This document shows positions 1,273 to 29,608 of a DNA stretch of 32,363 nucleotides, in pieces (position 1 is the first letter of the stretch; each line of letters begins with the position of its first letter). The notes below the pieces were generated by a model, which saw nothing but the letters and a program-made list of their open reading frames with translations, had not been told where the DNA came from and ran no database searches. The stretch is from contig JAURGC010000010.1 in assembly GCA_030833985.1 (NCBI GenBank), forward strand, positions 1 to 32,363, given 5' to 3'. This DNA comes from Algoriphagus sp. Its GTDB lineage: Bacteria > Bacteroidota > Bacteroidia > Cytophagales > Cyclobacteriaceae. The position numbers and the translations under genes are program-made.

Positions 1273-1579
1273 TACCCCTGCTCCTCCCTACTACGCGGTA
1301 ATTTTCACCACCTATCGAACAGCTACCGATTCAGCCTACGAAGAAATGGCAAAAGAAATGGTTCGACTTGTCACCTTGCAACCTGGTTATTTAGGTCATG
1401 AGAGTGCACGAAATGAACTTGGAATCACGATTTCTTATTGGGAGAGTCTGGAAGCTATCAAAGCCTGGAAAGTACAATCCTACCATCAACTGGCACAGAA
1501 ATACGGTAGAGAAAAATGGTATACTGCATTTAAAACACGCATAGCGTTAGTAGAACGAGATTATGGGATGAATACCTAA
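1262..1579 (+). CDS. Antibiotic biosynthesis monooxygenase (ABM)-domain protein
   Basis: Start moved to internal ATG at 1262 (MLANTPAPPYYAVIFTTYRT...); GYLGHESARNELGITISYWESLEAIKAWK matches the ABM ferredoxin-like family pattern; overlaps the end of the upstream gene. Confidence 0.75.
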   Translation: MLANTPAPPYYAVIFTTYRTATDSAYEEMAKEMVRLVTLQPGYLGHESARNELGITISYWESLEAIKAWKVQSYHQLAQKYGREKWYTAFKTRIALVERDYGMNT

Positions 1580-1587
1580 TGAGAGGA

Positions 1588-2106
1588 TCAACCTCCTAGT
1601 TCCAATTCCCGCTTGAGCTGCTTTACACGATCTCGAATATCTAGCGTAGCAGGATCTAAATGGAGAGAAGTTGCCTTTAAAAAGTCAACCACCGCACCTT
1701 CGTGATCCCTAGACTTGCCCTCCTCTAGGGTTACGTACCGCATAGTGGACCAAAGCACGGTCTTTAACTGGGTTTTGGAGTCATCGGTCAGGTAATATTC
1801 CACCATAATGGTATTGGTATTGTACCAGAGGATTCGGCTAAAAATCCTCACCCACTCCCCAACCATGGCCGGTTTTACATAACTGATGTTGTGATTGTAC
1901 ACCACCCAAGCCGCCTTATACACTCGAATTAAATCTACTATTTCCAATCCATATAGTTTTGGAACCTGGTCCTCACGGGCATTAAAAAAGTAGTCAAAAT
2001 ACTTCGCATTGTTGAGGTGACGCAGAGGATCGCAGTCCTGAAAGCGGATGACAACCCGACTTTCTGTTTCCTTCGGATACTGCTTCTGGGAATCGTAATT
2101 AAACAT
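1588..2106 (-). CDS. Acyl-CoA thioesterase, 4HBT/hotdog family
   Basis: RFQDCDPLRHLNNAKYFDYFFNAREDQ is the hotdog thioesterase signature; start overlaps the end of pncA. Confidence 0.8.
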   Translation of the reverse strand: MFNYDSQKQYPKETESRVVIRFQDCDPLRHLNNAKYFDYFFNAREDQVPKLYGLEIVDLIRVYKAAWVVYNHNISYVKPAMVGEWVRIFSRILWYNTNTIMVEYYLTDDSKTQLKTVLWSTMRYVTLEEGKSRDHEGAVVDFLKATSLHLDPATLDIRDRVKQLKRELELGG

Positions 2107-23462: not shown

Positions 23463-23501
23463 GTACCAGGTACCTGCCTTCCGCAGGCAGGTACCTGGTA
23501 C
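23463..23501. repeat. 17-bp perfect inverted repeat (hairpin)
   Basis: GTACCAGGTACCTGCCT - TCCGC - AGGCAGGTACCTGGTAC. Confidence 0.9.
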
Positions 23502-23517
23502 AAAACACTTGATATCC

Positions 23518-23922
23518 ATGTCAAAAAAAACTTACCCTATTCAAAAATCCGAAGAAGAATGGCAGGCACAATTGGATCCCCTATCCTACCAGGTCTTGCG
23601 TCAAAAAGGAACGGAGAAGCCCTTCACCGGTGCATATACGCTAAACAAAGAAACAGGCGTGTATTCCTGCAAAGGCTGTGGCAATCCTATTTTTCATTCC
23701 GATTTCAAGTACGACAGCGGTTGCGGATGGCCTAGCTTTACCCATCCTATCAAAGAAGAGGCCATAGAAGTGCACATGGACTACAGCCACTTCATGATTC
23801 GGGAAGAGATTCTTTGTGCTTCCTGTGGAGGTCACCTAGGCCACCGCTTCCCCGATGGACCATCGGACAAAGGCGGCATCCGGTACTGCATCAATTCGGT
23901 GAGTATGGAGTTTGAAAAGTAG
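23518..23922 (+). CDS. msrB: Peptide-methionine (R)-S-oxide reductase
   Basis: GVYSCKGCGNPIF, DSGCGWPSFTHPI, CASCGGHLGHRFPDGP, RYCINSVSMEF. Confidence 0.95.
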   Translation: MSKKTYPIQKSEEEWQAQLDPLSYQVLRQKGTEKPFTGAYTLNKETGVYSCKGCGNPIFHSDFKYDSGCGWPSFTHPIKEEAIEVHMDYSHFMIREEILCASCGGHLGHRFPDGPSDKGGIRYCINSVSMEFEK

Positions 23923-23995
23923 AAACGAGAAACAAGACCTTAGATTACATTTATTGGTTCTCGCTTCTTGACTCTTGGTTCTTGTTTCTTTTCTA

Positions 23996-24025
23996 TTGCA
24001 TTTCCCCAATACCACCTTATATTTG
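23996..24025 (+). promoter_or_regulatory. Bacteroidota-type promoter upstream of the his operon (TTG-N19-TATATTTG)
   Basis: TTG 23996-23998, exact TAnnTTTG match TATATTTG at 24018-24025, 19-nt spacing. Confidence 0.6.
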
Positions 24026-24033
24026 CTATCGAA

Positions 24034-24117
24034 ATGAAAAACACAGCAGCAAATCTTATTTTTTCTCTGCCAGCACAGGTACATTATCTGTTGCATCATT
24101 TCCATCATTCCTCTTGA
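24034..24117 (+). CDS. His operon leader peptide MKNTAANLIFSLPAQVHYLLHHFHHSS
   Basis: 27-codon ORF ending 100 nt before the hisG start; 5 His in the last 11 residues (HYLLHHFHHSS). Not in the ORF track because of its length. Confidence 0.8.
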   Translation: MKNTAANLIFSLPAQVHYLLHHFHHSS

Positions 24118-24217
24118 GAGGAAAGATACTACCCCCACCCCGGTGCTGCTGATGATAGGGATTCGGCCATTCACCACCCCTTCGCTCAACTAATTACGCA
24201 TTTAATAACTCCTCCTC

Positions 24218-25078
24218 ATGGAACAGATTGTACGTATTGCCGTTCAAAAAAGTGGACGATTATCCGATGACTCCCTCAGCCTAATTAAAGAATGTGGCAT
24301 CAAGTTTTACAATGGAACAGGCAAACTCAAGTCCAGCTCTACCAATTTCCCGGTTGAATTCCTTTTTCTAAGAGATGATGATATCCCCGGCTATGTAGCA
24401 GACGGCGTGGCAGACCTAGGCATTGTAGGTCAAAATGAGGTAGCCGAAAAAGACAAAGAAGTAGTTCTTCTCAAGAAACTAGGCTTTTCCAAGTGCCGAC
24501 TTTCACTCGCCATCCCAAAAGGTACTCCCTACAGTGGTATTGGGTATTTTGCAGGAAAAAATATTGCTACCTCCTACCCTAAAATCCTTGGAGACTACCT
24601 CCAATCTCAAAAAATCACTGCCTCCATCCACGAAATTTCAGGCTCTGTAGAGATTGCACCTAGCATCGGACTTGCCGAAGGAATTTGTGATATTGTCAGT
24701 TCCGGATCTACCCTGATGATGAATGGACTGAAAGAGGTGGAAGAGGTATTTACCTCGGAAGCGGTCTTGATTGCAAATACCAATTTGAGTGATTGGAAAA
24801 AAAGCATTGTCGATAAACTTCTTTTTCGAATCAATGCCGTGCAAACAGGAAAAAGCAATAAGTACGTGCTTATGAATGTGCCCAATACCGCCCTACCCAA
24901 GATCATCTCCCTAATTCCAGGCATGCGCAGCCCTACCATCTTGCCCCTAGCACAAGAAGGTTGGTCATCCGTACACTCCGTACTTAGTGAAGATCAATTT
25001 TGGGAAAATATGGACGAACTTCGTGCCGCTGGCGCAGAAGGTATCCTGGTGGTTCCCATCGAAAAAATGGTTATTTAA
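24218..25078 (+). CDS. hisG: ATP phosphoribosyltransferase
   Basis: IAVQKSGRLSDDSLSLIKECGI, VADLGIVGQNEV, GICDIVSSGSTLMMNGLKEVEEV. Confidence 0.96.
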   Translation: MEQIVRIAVQKSGRLSDDSLSLIKECGIKFYNGTGKLKSSSTNFPVEFLFLRDDDIPGYVADGVADLGIVGQNEVAEKDKEVVLLKKLGFSKCRLSLAIPKGTPYSGIGYFAGKNIATSYPKILGDYLQSQKITASIHEISGSVEIAPSIGLAEGICDIVSSGSTLMMNGLKEVEEVFTSEAVLIANTNLSDWKKSIVDKLLFRINAVQTGKSNKYVLMNVPNTALPKIISLIPGMRSPTILPLAQEGWSSVHSVLSEDQFWENMDELRAAGAEGILVVPIEKMVI

Positions 25079-25099
25079 ATAAACACAAGACTTCAATCG

Positions 25100-26395
25100 A
25101 TGAAATTGCTCGTTAATCCTAGTCCAGAAATATGGCAAAAGCACTTGGCTCGTCCAGCAATGGATACCAAAAAAATAAAAAAAATCATCAAGCCAATATT
25201 TGAAAAGGTGGCTAAATCAGGGGACAAGGCACTACGCAAGTTTGCCCAAGAATACGACCATGTACATTTAGATTCCTTACTTGCTACTACCGAAGAAATC
25301 CAAGCTGCAGCAAACCTACTTCCCCCTGAACTTATCAAAGCAATTGCACTAGCAAAATCCAATCTTGAAAAGTTTCATGCAGCTCAAGCCACACCGGAAT
25401 TGGTAGTAGAAGTGATGCCTGGAGTTACCTGCAGCAGAAAAAGCGTCCCTATCCAACGCGTGGGTTTGTATATCCCCGGAGGTACCGCCCCCCTATTCAG
25501 TACCGTGCTCATGCTAGGCATCCCTGCCCAGCTCGCTGGCTGTAGGGAAATTGCCCTGTGTACACCGACTAACCGCAAAGGAGAAATCCATCCTGCCATC
25601 CTGTATACTGCTCAGCTGGTTGGCATTACGAAAGTGGTAAAAATTGGAGGAGCACAGGCCATAGCCGCACTGACCTTCGGAACGGAATCGGTTCCCAAAG
25701 TGGATAAGATTTTTGGACCGGGCAACCAGTACGTGACCGCAGCCAAGCAAGAGGCGACCAAGTACGGGGTAGCCATTGACATGCCTGCAGGGCCTTCCGA
25801 AGTCCTTGTCTATGCCGACGAGACAGCCATCCCTGCATTCGTGGCCGCAGATCTTCTTTCCCAAGCAGAGCATGGAGTGGATTCTCAGGTTGTATTTGTT
25901 ACTAATTCAGAAAAATTTGCCCATAAGGTAATGGCAGAAATAAACCTGCAACTGGAAAAACTTTCCCGCAAGGAGATCGCTGCCAAAGCCCTGACCAACT
26001 CCTGTGCAGTAATCCTAGAAGATCAGGCAAGTGCCATTGCTCTAATCAACGAATATGCCCCCGAGCATTTGATCTTAGCGGTAAAAAAGGAAGAAGAAAT
26101 TACCCGCCAAATCCACTCGGCCGGTTCGGTATTTTTAGGAAATTACAGCCCAGAAGCAGCAGGCGATTATGCATCTGGCACCAACCATACCCTACCCACC
26201 TCTGGCTATGCTCGCAACTACAGCGGGGTATCCTTAGATAGCTTTGTAAAAAAGATTACCTACCAAAAGATCACTCCAAAGGGCCTCAAAACCTTAGGTC
26301 CTGCAGTAGAGATTATGGCTGCCAATGAACAACTGGACGCCCACAAGCAAGCTGTGAGCGTTCGACTCGAGTACCTCAAACAACAAAAAAAATGA
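25100..26395 (+). CDS. hisD: Histidinol dehydrogenase
   Basis: [87 protein letters not shown]. Confidence 0.97.
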
Positions 26396-27447
26396 GGATA
26401 GACATCACTAGCTTACTTCGGCCTCACTTGCGCCAGTTACAACCTTACACTTCAGCTCGAGACGAATACAGTGGCTCTGAGGGAGTATTTTTGGACGCCA
26501 ACGAAAATCCATTTGGATCGAGTACAAGTCAAGATTTTAACCGCTATCCAGACCCGTACCAAACGGCACTGAAGGAAGAAATAGCAAAAATCAAAGGCGC
26601 AAGCCCTGCACAGCTTTTTCTAGGCAATGGATCCGATGAGGCAATAGATTTGCTTTTCCGAGCTTTTTGCATCCCAGGACAGGACAATGTCATCCTACTC
26701 CCTCCAACTTACGGGATGTATGGTGTCAGTGCTGCCATCAATGGGGTAGAAGTTCGGAATGTTTCTTTGACACCTGAATTCCAGTTGCAACCCGAGAAAA
26801 TACTAGCGTCGATAGATGCACATTCCAAAATTCTATTCATCTGTTCCCCGAACAATCCCTCGGGCAATGCCGTCAAACGAGAGGATATTATTTTTCTTCT
26901 TGAGAATTTTTCTGGAATTGTGGTGGTAGATGAGGCCTACATCGACTTTTATGAAGGAGCTAGTTTGCTCACTGTTCTGGATCAGCACCCCAACCTGCTG
27001 GTCATGCAAACCTTGTCCAAAGCTTGGGGACTGGCTTCACTTCGACTAGGGATGGCCTTTGCAAGCCCAGAATTAATTCGGGTACTCAACCAAATCAAAC
27101 CTCCTTACAATATCTCGGGATTGACCCAGGAAACCGTCCTTTCGGCGCTTCAAAACAAGGAGAAAGTGGATGAATTTATTCAACTAATTCTCGAGGAGCG
27201 TGAATTTCTTCGAAAGGAACTAGAACGATTACCTTACATCCTTCGTGTTCACAACTCAGATGCCAACTTTCTTCTGGTCCAGTTTGAACATCCAAACCAG
27301 GTATATGAGGACTTGGTGAAAGAAAAGATTATTGTTCGTAATCGTTCCTCAGTATTGCACTGTACTGGTTGCCTTCGAATCACCGTGGGCACCCGAGCGG
27401 AATCTATCGCGCTACTACAGGCTTTGGATAAAGTATGTTCCTCTTAA
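26392..27447 (+). CDS. hisC: Histidinol-phosphate aminotransferase
   Basis: [68 protein letters not shown]. Confidence 0.96.
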
Positions 27448-27479
27448 ATCAATCAACCGAATTATTTCTAAGTGATTCC

Positions 27480-28577
27480 ATGAAAAAGAAAGTCCTATTT
27501 ATAGACCGCGACGGTACCATCATCAAAGAGCCTCCTACTGATTTTCAGGTAGATAGTCTGGAAAAATTAGAGTTTATCCCCAAAGCCATCACCAACTTAC
27601 GGAAGATTGCAGAGGAATGTGACTACGAACTTGTGCTGGTAACCAACCAAGATGGATTGGGTACGGACTCCTTTCCAGAGAAGGATTTTTGGCCTGCCCA
27701 GTACAAAATGTTAAAAACCTTGGAACAGGAAAACGTGCACTTTGCCTCCATCCACATTGACCGTAGTTTTGAACACGAGCAGGCACCTACTCGTAAGCCG
27801 AGAACGGGTATGCTTACCGCCTACCTATCTGAAGAATATGACCTTGCCAATTCATTTGTAATTGGCGATCGAATCACGGATATTCAACTTGCTCAAAACC
27901 TAGGTGCAAAGGCTATTTTCTATGGCGAACATCAATCAGATGCGGTTTTGTCCACTGAGGATTGGGACAGCATCTACACCTTCCTCAAGCTTCCTCCACG
28001 AAAAGCAATCGTCCATCGAAAGACCTCCGAAACGGACATTTCGATCGAATTGAATTTGGATGGATCAGGGGCATGTTCCATCTCTACAGGACTGCATTTC
28101 TTCGATCACATGCTCGAACAGCTGGGTAAACATGGAAGTACGGACCTATCCATTCAAGTAAAGGGAGACCTTCACATTGACGAGCACCACACCATTGAAG
28201 ACACCGCACTTGCCTTGGGCGAGGCCTATGCCAAGGCATTGGGTGACAAAAAAGGAATCTACCGCTATGGTTTTTTACTTCCTATGGATGATTCTTTGGC
28301 TCAGGTAGCCATTGACTTCGGAGGGCGACCTTGGTGTGTCTGGGATGCAAGCTTTACGCGTGAAAAAGTTGGAGATATGCCCACGGAGCTATTTTTCCAC
28401 TTCTTCAAATCCTTTTCGGATACCGCCAAATGCAACTTAAACATTCGTATAACAGGGGACAACGAGCATCACAAAATCGAAGCCACTTTCAAGGGCCTTG
28501 CGCGAGCCATCAAGATGGCTGTGCAACGAGATCCTAGAAACTTAAATCAGCTGCCTAGCACCAAAGGGGTGCTTTGA
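27480..28577 (+). CDS. hisB: Bifunctional histidinol-phosphatase/imidazoleglycerol-phosphate dehydratase
   Basis: N-terminal HAD phosphatase ([13 protein letters not shown]) plus IGPD domain ([31 protein letters not shown]); start set to [12 protein letters not shown]. Confidence 0.96.
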
Positions 28578-28608
28578 ATTATGTTCAATCGGACGTAGGC
28601 AAATTCCA

Positions 28609-28654
28609 GCTAGAGGAGCGAATTAATAAAAAATATTTTGCTCCTCCGGAGCAT
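28609..28654. repeat. REP-like hairpins R1 (degenerate, 28609-28619) and R2 (TGCTCC-TCC-GGAGCA, about 28639-28653)
   Basis: GCTAGAGGAGC and TGCTCCTCCGGAGCA; same GCTCC-nnn-GGAGC core as the units flanking the RAYT gene. Confidence 0.75.
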
Positions 28655-28732
28655 AGTTTCAAAACCAAATTTGAATAAACGATTTCCAAAACCAATTATT
28701 CAAATTTTTGCCTCTGAAATTAATAAAGCATA

Positions 28733-28801
28733 GCGCACCTCCAGAGCGCACTTGACATGATCCTGTTAGTTTTCTATTAACAAAATGCTCCTCTGGAGCA
28801 T
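28733..28801 (+). repeat. REP doublet 1 (forward): GCGC..CTCC..GCGC hairpin, 35-nt spacer, ATGCTCC-TCT-GGAGCAT hairpin
   Basis: Hairpins at 28733-28749 and 28785-28801; spacer ACTTGACATGATCCTGTTAGTTTTCTATTAACAAA. Confidence 0.85.
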
Positions 28802-28842
28802 ATTAAAACCTGCTTTTTGCGCAATTTCAGAGCACTAGATTC

Positions 28843-28911
28843 TTGCTCCAGAGGAGCAACATGTTAATAGAAATGGAATTTAGAATAGTTCGTTCGCTCC
28901 AGAGGAGCGAA
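28843..28911 (-). repeat. REP doublet 2 (inverted copy): TTGCTCC-AGA-GGAGCAA and TTCGCTCC-AGA-GGAGCGAA
   Basis: Hairpins at 28843-28859 and 28893-28911; spacer contains TGTTAATAGAAA, the reverse complement of the doublet 1 spacer motif. Confidence 0.87.
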
Positions 28912-28968
28912 ATATGAAAGTGAATAATTCAATTTTAAACTCTATATCAAACCCATCGATTGCTAGAA

Positions 28969-29430
28969 TTATTCAACCCAATCAAACAAATACTTTTCCT
29001 CAAACGTTACATTAAATCGCTGTAACAATTCAATGTATTCCTCTTTGAAGGATTTTCTTTGATGATGCTGCTCTTGGTTATTGATGTATTGAATCACATG
29101 ATCCAACTGTGATTGGCCATACGAAAAAGCACCATATCCTTCTTGCCAATAAAATTTTCCTTTAACAAATCCCCTTGAATTAATCCATTTGGAGGAATTG
29201 GTTTTTACTGAATTTACTAATTCGGAAACCATACAATTGGGCCTTGAACTAAATAAGATATGAATATGATCGGGCATACCTCCAATTGCAAACAGCTTCT
29301 GGTCCCTGCCATTAATTATTCCTGAAACATATTTAAAAAGTTCCTCTCTCCAAGTTTTATGGATTACGTTTTGCCTCCCTTTAACTGAGAATACGAGATG
29401 GATATAGATTTGAGAAAAAGTATCTGCCAT
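28969..29430 (-). CDS. REP-associated tyrosine transposase (RAYT / IS200-like Y1 TnpA-REP)
   Basis: Start set to MADTFSQIYIHLVFSVKGRQNVI; HUH motif GMPDHIHILF; catalytic Tyr context VIQYINNQEQHHQRKSFKEEY; flanked by REP-type hairpins. Confidence 0.9.
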   Translation of the reverse strand: MADTFSQIYIHLVFSVKGRQNVIHKTWREELFKYVSGIINGRDQKLFAIGGMPDHIHILFSSRPNCMVSELVNSVKTNSSKWINSRGFVKGKFYWQEGYGAFSYGQSQLDHVIQYINNQEQHHQRKSFKEEYIELLQRFNVTFEEKYLFDWVE

Positions 29431-29608
29431 ATTGAAAAAATATATTGATTGTGTTTTTACGGAAAAAATTAAAAATTGGATGAATTTTGGAAATAGAATT
29501 GAAAAATCATTTCTACTCACCTTACCTGAGTATTCGTTCAAACCCAATTTTTAAGCGATTTCAGAGAGCTTAATGCTATTTTATCGCCTCTAAATTCAAT
29601 AAATTGTA

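Follow-up and report, generated by a model that had tools for sequence, protein, structure and literature searches.

A histidine-codon leader without an intrinsic terminator upstream of hisGDCB in Algoriphagus and related Cyclobacteriaceae

The DNA analysed here (the window) is a 32,363-nucleotide stretch of contig JAURGC010000010.1 from an Algoriphagus-group genome (Cytophagales), the assembly of which is in fragments and has a completeness of 82%; close relatives of its hisG occur in Algoriphagus species, within the Cyclobacteriaceae. Four histidine biosynthesis genes, hisG, hisD, hisC and a bifunctional hisB, follow one another on the forward strand (Table 1), and presumably form an operon under the control of a leader. 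We inspected positions 24218-29547 and found no reading frames for hisH, hisA, hisF or hisI 3' of hisB as far as 29547, and the leader therefore appears to control hisGDCB only. The region immediately ahead of hisG, 24034-24217, is best explained as the control region of this operon. Elsewhere in the neighbourhood, a near-perfect palindrome (GTACCTGCCTTCCGCAGGCAGGTAC, 23470-23494) lies ahead of msrB, similar palindromes are also present near hisG of one sister genome, and an IS200-like (Y1_Tnp) transposase gene is located 3' of hisB (28972-29547, reverse strand); palindrome and transposase are possibly a REP/RAYT pair.

Table 1. Features of the his locus, in window positions, and the trp leader of a second Algoriphagus genome used for comparison
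Feature	Position	Strand	Basis
Bacteroidota sigma-A promoter: TTG (23996-23998), 19 nt, -7 box TATATTTG (24018-24025)	23996-24025	+	sequence, box conservation
His leader peptide ORF, 27 codons and TGA stop	24034-24117	+	conservation; reading frame (94/94 distinct sequences)
Hairpin P1, within the leader ORF, 3' end at first His codon	24073-24094	+	z -2.05 in window
His block CAT CAT TTC CAT CAT (HHFHH), presumed stall site	24094-24108	+	conservation of CAYCAYTTYCAYCAYTCC
Hairpin P2, TTCCTC-TTGA-GAGGAA, stop codon TGA (24115-24117) in loop	24108-24123	+	z -2.55 in window
Hairpin P3, near-invariant loop GATGAYAGGGATTC, no U-tract after it	24142-24175	+	36 versions compared
Candidate Rho-loading region: 45 nt ahead of hisG, C-rich and G-poor (18 C, 2 G)	24173-24217	+	composition only
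hisG	24218-25078	+	Pfam, ORFs
hisD	25100-26395	+	Pfam, ORFs
hisC	26392-27447	+	Pfam, ORFs
hisB, bifunctional	about 27480-28577	+	Pfam, ORFs, position
trp leader MKTIANKYWWWHSYSFQKEV, Algoriphagus genome G008, locus L161	about 1501-1636		RF01692 match

The leader ORF translates to MKNTAANLIFSLPAQVHYLLHHFHHSS, has five His codons among its last 11, and ends 100 nt before the hisG start. It had been proposed in a first-pass annotation, made from the window alone, as the His-codon leader peptide of the his operon, and both the ORF and its His codons are present as described there. Comparison with relatives bears the proposal out. Among 80 further genomes assigned to the same GTDB family, 78 have a short His-cluster ORF ahead of hisG, and in 69 of the 80 it contains at least four His per 10 codons, as against 0.7% of dinucleotide shuffles; by the same cluster count the next residue after His is Leu, with 38/80, the sampled genomes being related to one another. 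The hisG upstream regions of Algoriphagus carry the leader, the shortest of these regions being interrupted by a contig end, and CAYCAYTTYCAYCAYTCC is present in 55 of 61 Algoriphagus genomes, usually once in each, compared with 1 for a control pattern. Belliella, Cecembia, Aquiflexum, Echinicola and further genera also have the leader.

Conservation of the reading frame was assessed with nucleotide anchors only, by measuring how far the His block lies from the promoter-linked ATG. This distance ranges from 30 to 75 nt and is a multiple of three in all 94 distinct sequences; most of the 94 have a length of 60 nt, which lowers the number of independent cases, and the other lengths are all multiples of three. 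The distance from the His block to the hisG ATG, in the same 94 sequences, is spread over all three phases (40/28/26). On these comparative grounds the leader is specific for His and its reading frame is under selection, from which we infer that it is translated. That the ORF arose by chance has a practically negligible probability given the conserved frame and His codons, and we found nothing in its favour.

The promoter and the leader ATG are 8 nt apart, and the promoter box lies 7-10 nt before the ATG in nearly all leaders of both the Algoriphagus and the Belliella-type sets. A transcriptome map of Flavobacterium psychrophilum places the corresponding TAnnTTTG box between -12 and -5 relative to the transcription start (PMC9723704), and this spacing predicts a leader 5'UTR of 3-6 nt, or about 4 nt in the window, with transcription starting near 24030. 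The leader mRNA is thus predicted to be nearly leaderless; leaderless mRNAs make up only about 5% in the F. psychrophilum map (PMC9723704). A second conserved box, TAnnTTGY (GTAACTTGCC / GTATATTGCA), is found at exactly -12 to -5 of the hisG ATG in 67/120 and 22/58 ATG-starting hisG upstream regions of two sets (loci L010-L034 and many of L093-L158), and is absent from the window's own subclade. This is also where F. psychrophilum has its SM5 alternative promoter box (PMC9723704); should the TAnnTTGY box be a promoter, the hisG mRNA made from it would be leaderless and would bypass the leader.

Three hairpins can be drawn in the leader RNA. P1 is kept as a hairpin despite sequence change, with a mean z of -1.75 over 60 Algoriphagus-group sequences. 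P2, which the first-pass annotation had also recognised, together with the stop codon in its loop, has support both in the window and in the family: its sequence varies widely from genus to genus, its mean z in 40 distinct terminator-less family members is -1.82 as against -0.34 to -0.87 for slid windows, and it is supported as well across the 60 Algoriphagus-group sequences. P3 in the window alone folds no better than shuffles (not significant); when 36 distinct versions are compared, 90.8% of cells are paired, versus 23-56% when the structure is slid, and compensatory changes are seen. A phylogeny-aware G-test for covariation (our own script) on MAFFT alignments gave zero significant pairs, probably because P1 is unalignable by sequence and the set is shallow, and we regard covariation of the leader hairpins as suggestive. 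Two further pairings had been put forward as alternative folds, GCTGCTG with CAGCAGC and GTGCTG with CAGCAC; both can be formed by the window sequence, but they are kept in none of nine close sisters. The family set likewise contains no conserved antiterminator pairing of the 2:3 type.

Two short motifs accompany these structures. The P3 loop motif was considered as a general module and discarded, as it occurs about once per genome in Algoriphagus. In many genera (Belliella, Cecembia, Aquiflexum and others; L151, L156, L210 and L224 are examples) a strongly conserved AYATATYGCCC follows P2, about 15 nt past the leader stop; a C-rich stretch mostly takes its place in Algoriphagus, where the P3 loop is invariant, with L128 retaining the motif. 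This motif too was rejected as a general leader module, there being few matches per genome away from hisG.

No terminator-like site is present at 23900-24400 of the window, as the first-pass annotation had noticed for the sequence before hisG, and none was found in 35 Algoriphagus hisG upstream regions, which supports its suggestion of a non-classical output. The terminator test is our own heuristic and is positive in 2 of 200 shuffles. With this test an intrinsic terminator was detected in 9 of 80 genomes of the window's family, in one of 15 other Cytophagales upstream regions, many of them without a recognisable leader, and in 34 of 40 genomes from other sampled Bacteroidia families (Fisher's exact test for family versus other Bacteroidia, p = 3e-16, using 8/80 for the family and ignoring relatedness). 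Most hisG upstream regions of these 40 genomes have a His run in the leader followed by a strong hairpin and U-tract, and this coincidence of leader and terminator at the same place in 34 of the 40 indicates that attenuation of his genes is the usual state in the class. Nor has Algoriphagus lost intrinsic attenuation as such, since its trp leader, which matches RF01692, retains a true intrinsic terminator before a trpE-like coding sequence.

Leaders with and without a terminator also differ in architecture. In 170 of 179 terminator-less leaders the last His is at most three codons from the stop, whereas most of the terminator-bearing leaders, of which this comparison includes only nine, have an HHHHH-type run and then more codons before the stop; P2 is found in terminator-less leaders and missing from terminator-bearing ones. 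This pattern is most simply read as loss of the terminator and a shift of the His codons to the stop within this part of the Cytophagales, with the direction of loss taken from the distribution rather than from a tree. A leader that is a relic of a terminator-bearing ancestor, with histidine sensing gone, would fit the prevalence of terminator-bearing leaders among the other sampled families of the class, and one that merely recruits ribosomes for the operon would fit the proposal that leader genes raise translation of the next gene (PMC4833913). We judge both very unlikely: the frame, the His codons, their placement beside the stop and P2 are kept over many genera, unlike what is seen in a relic, and the gap of roughly 100 nt before hisG greatly exceeds the 11-14 bp peak given for Bacteroidetes (PMC4833913).

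The interpretation that we favour, with a probability of about 0.85, is that the leader senses the charging of tRNA-His through ribosome-mediated attenuation, in a derived form without a terminator. Sensing by a stall on HHFHH is proposed because attenuation of this kind is established and the leader is conserved, and the His-codon cluster points to a stall caused by tRNA charging rather than to nascent-peptide arrest by the free amino acid. A ribosome would start on the nearly leaderless mRNA and translate the leader. A shortage of charged tRNA-His would make it stall on HHFHH beside the stop codon, where the His codons are positioned such that a stalled ribosome would cover the RNA adjoining the stop; it would thereby hold P2 open and mask the RNA just past the stop, and RNA polymerase would continue into hisG. 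With ample histidine, the ribosome would arrive at the stop and depart, P2 would close, and the C-rich, G-poor spacer would be exposed, allowing premature termination. Both the response to histidine and the direction of the switch are inferred here.

In the absence of an intrinsic terminator, the termination step is most likely to involve Rho, and Rho-dependent termination in the tract before hisG is our leading guess for the output, at somewhat less than even odds; it is one of the two outputs named in the first-pass annotation. The composition of the last 45 nt before hisG is consistent with that expected of a Rho-loading region, with a G content of 0.07 and a C/G ratio of 3.1 across the 179 terminator-less leaders; a G-poor 5'UTR could alternatively result from translation-initiation preferences in Bacteroidota. 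The missing terminator would also suit translational attenuation, in which a ribosome on the leader refolds the RNA so as to expose or hide the hisG start and transcription is not terminated. There are precedents, such as toiL/topAI (PMC12121999), and in the window GAGGA past the leader stop can pair with TCCTC directly before the hisG ATG. However, in folding calculations on 60 Algoriphagus-group sequences the accessibility of hisG positions -20 to +15 stays at 0.52-0.54 whether the ribosome is absent, at the stop or stalled, it is likewise unaffected in 18 other sequences, and in the terminator-less family set leader segments have no conserved pairing to the hisG start. We consider this mode unlikely, and coupling through altered accessibility of the hisG start, a possibility raised in the first-pass annotation, finds no support in these calculations.

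P3 offers a different output, as a hairpin that pauses or terminates RNA polymerase without a U-tract and competes with pairing of the His block to the P3 5' arm and loop. Its conservation with compensatory changes and an invariant loop would accord with such a role, as would the complementarity of the His block to this 5' half in Algoriphagus (mean z -1.36), an arrangement reminiscent of classical attenuators. This complementarity is not seen in terminator-less leaders of the remaining family (z -0.11), though, P3 has no U-tract after it, and the Algoriphagus trp leader has a normal terminator; moreover, a stalled ribosome would favour P3 rather than prevent it. A switch operated by P3 is accordingly improbable. 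Returning to termination governed by the ribosome and P2, we suggest tentatively, with the odds a little against so broad a statement, that most genomes of this Cyclobacteriaceae-type family have swapped the classical terminator-based his attenuator of Bacteroidia for a switch responding to tRNA-His charging, in which a ribosome stalling beside, or leaving, the stop codon in its hairpin governs Rho-dependent or other non-intrinsic termination.

The leader is an RNA element outside Rfam; its kind of attenuation is known and the terminator-less variant is new. A search of the literature, which covered few subscription papers, found no paper on a Cytophagales his leader. Many genome annotations stand to gain an element missing from Rfam, and the leaders constitute a large natural set in which the sensor is kept and the terminator missing. 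The same family also contains terminator-bearing leaders for comparison, and how the output step evolved, and whether Rho exerts control in Bacteroidota, can be tested directly.

Leader-peptide attenuation has long been known, and attenuation by a stall at uncharged tRNA is usually described with an intrinsic terminator. As in such classical attenuators, a short ORF, enriched in codons for the operon's end product and presumably translated, precedes the biosynthetic operon, but no intrinsic terminator precedes the first gene. The enterobacterial his leader (RF00514), which the first-pass annotation had named for comparison, shares with that of Algoriphagus a His-codon leader peptide directly upstream of hisG and presumed sensing of tRNA-His by stalling. 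It differs in that RF00514 at its gathering score has no match in the window or the whole genome (the E. coli control was positive), and in that the Algoriphagus leader has His codons abutting the stop, a stop inside a hairpin and a predicted nearly leaderless mRNA. Because the Algoriphagus leader lacks the terminator and an RF00514 match, while its sensing side should resemble that of a his attenuator, we class it as a variant rather than as the classical type. Searched against all Rfam families, neither the window's leader nor eight leaders of both types matched any.

Within the class, his leaders of other Bacteroidia have a His-rich ORF at the same place, and a common origin is probable; in the sampled leaders the His run is central and is followed by a strong hairpin plus U-tract, whereas the window's family mostly lacks the terminator. 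In Flavobacteriaceae a structured element without an Rfam hit has been reported upstream of hisG, along with 'strong clues' of leader-peptide attenuation at amino-acid operons (PMC9723704), and the F. psychrophilum hisG 5' element is likened to the window's leader by its description (PMC9723704). The Bacteroid-trp leader (RF01692) in Algoriphagus similarly has its leader peptide (WWW) close behind a TAnnTTTG box, 10 nt ahead of the ATG, and differs in having Trp codons and a normal intrinsic terminator; RF01692 has no match in the window or the window's genome, and the his leader is without Trp. For the output, the closest parallel would be E. coli tnaC, where Rho terminates transcription in the spacer once the ribosome has left the leader stop and is kept from doing so by a stalled ribosome (PMC3902921). 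In both, a ribosome at or near the leader stop would block termination and its release would permit Rho. In tnaC the stall is caused by free tryptophan acting through the nascent peptide, whereas in the his leader it would come from uncharged tRNA-His, and abundant amino acid would lower, not raise, expression of the his operon. If this reading is correct, the leader reads tRNA charging as trp and his leaders do and acts on transcription in the manner of tnaC.
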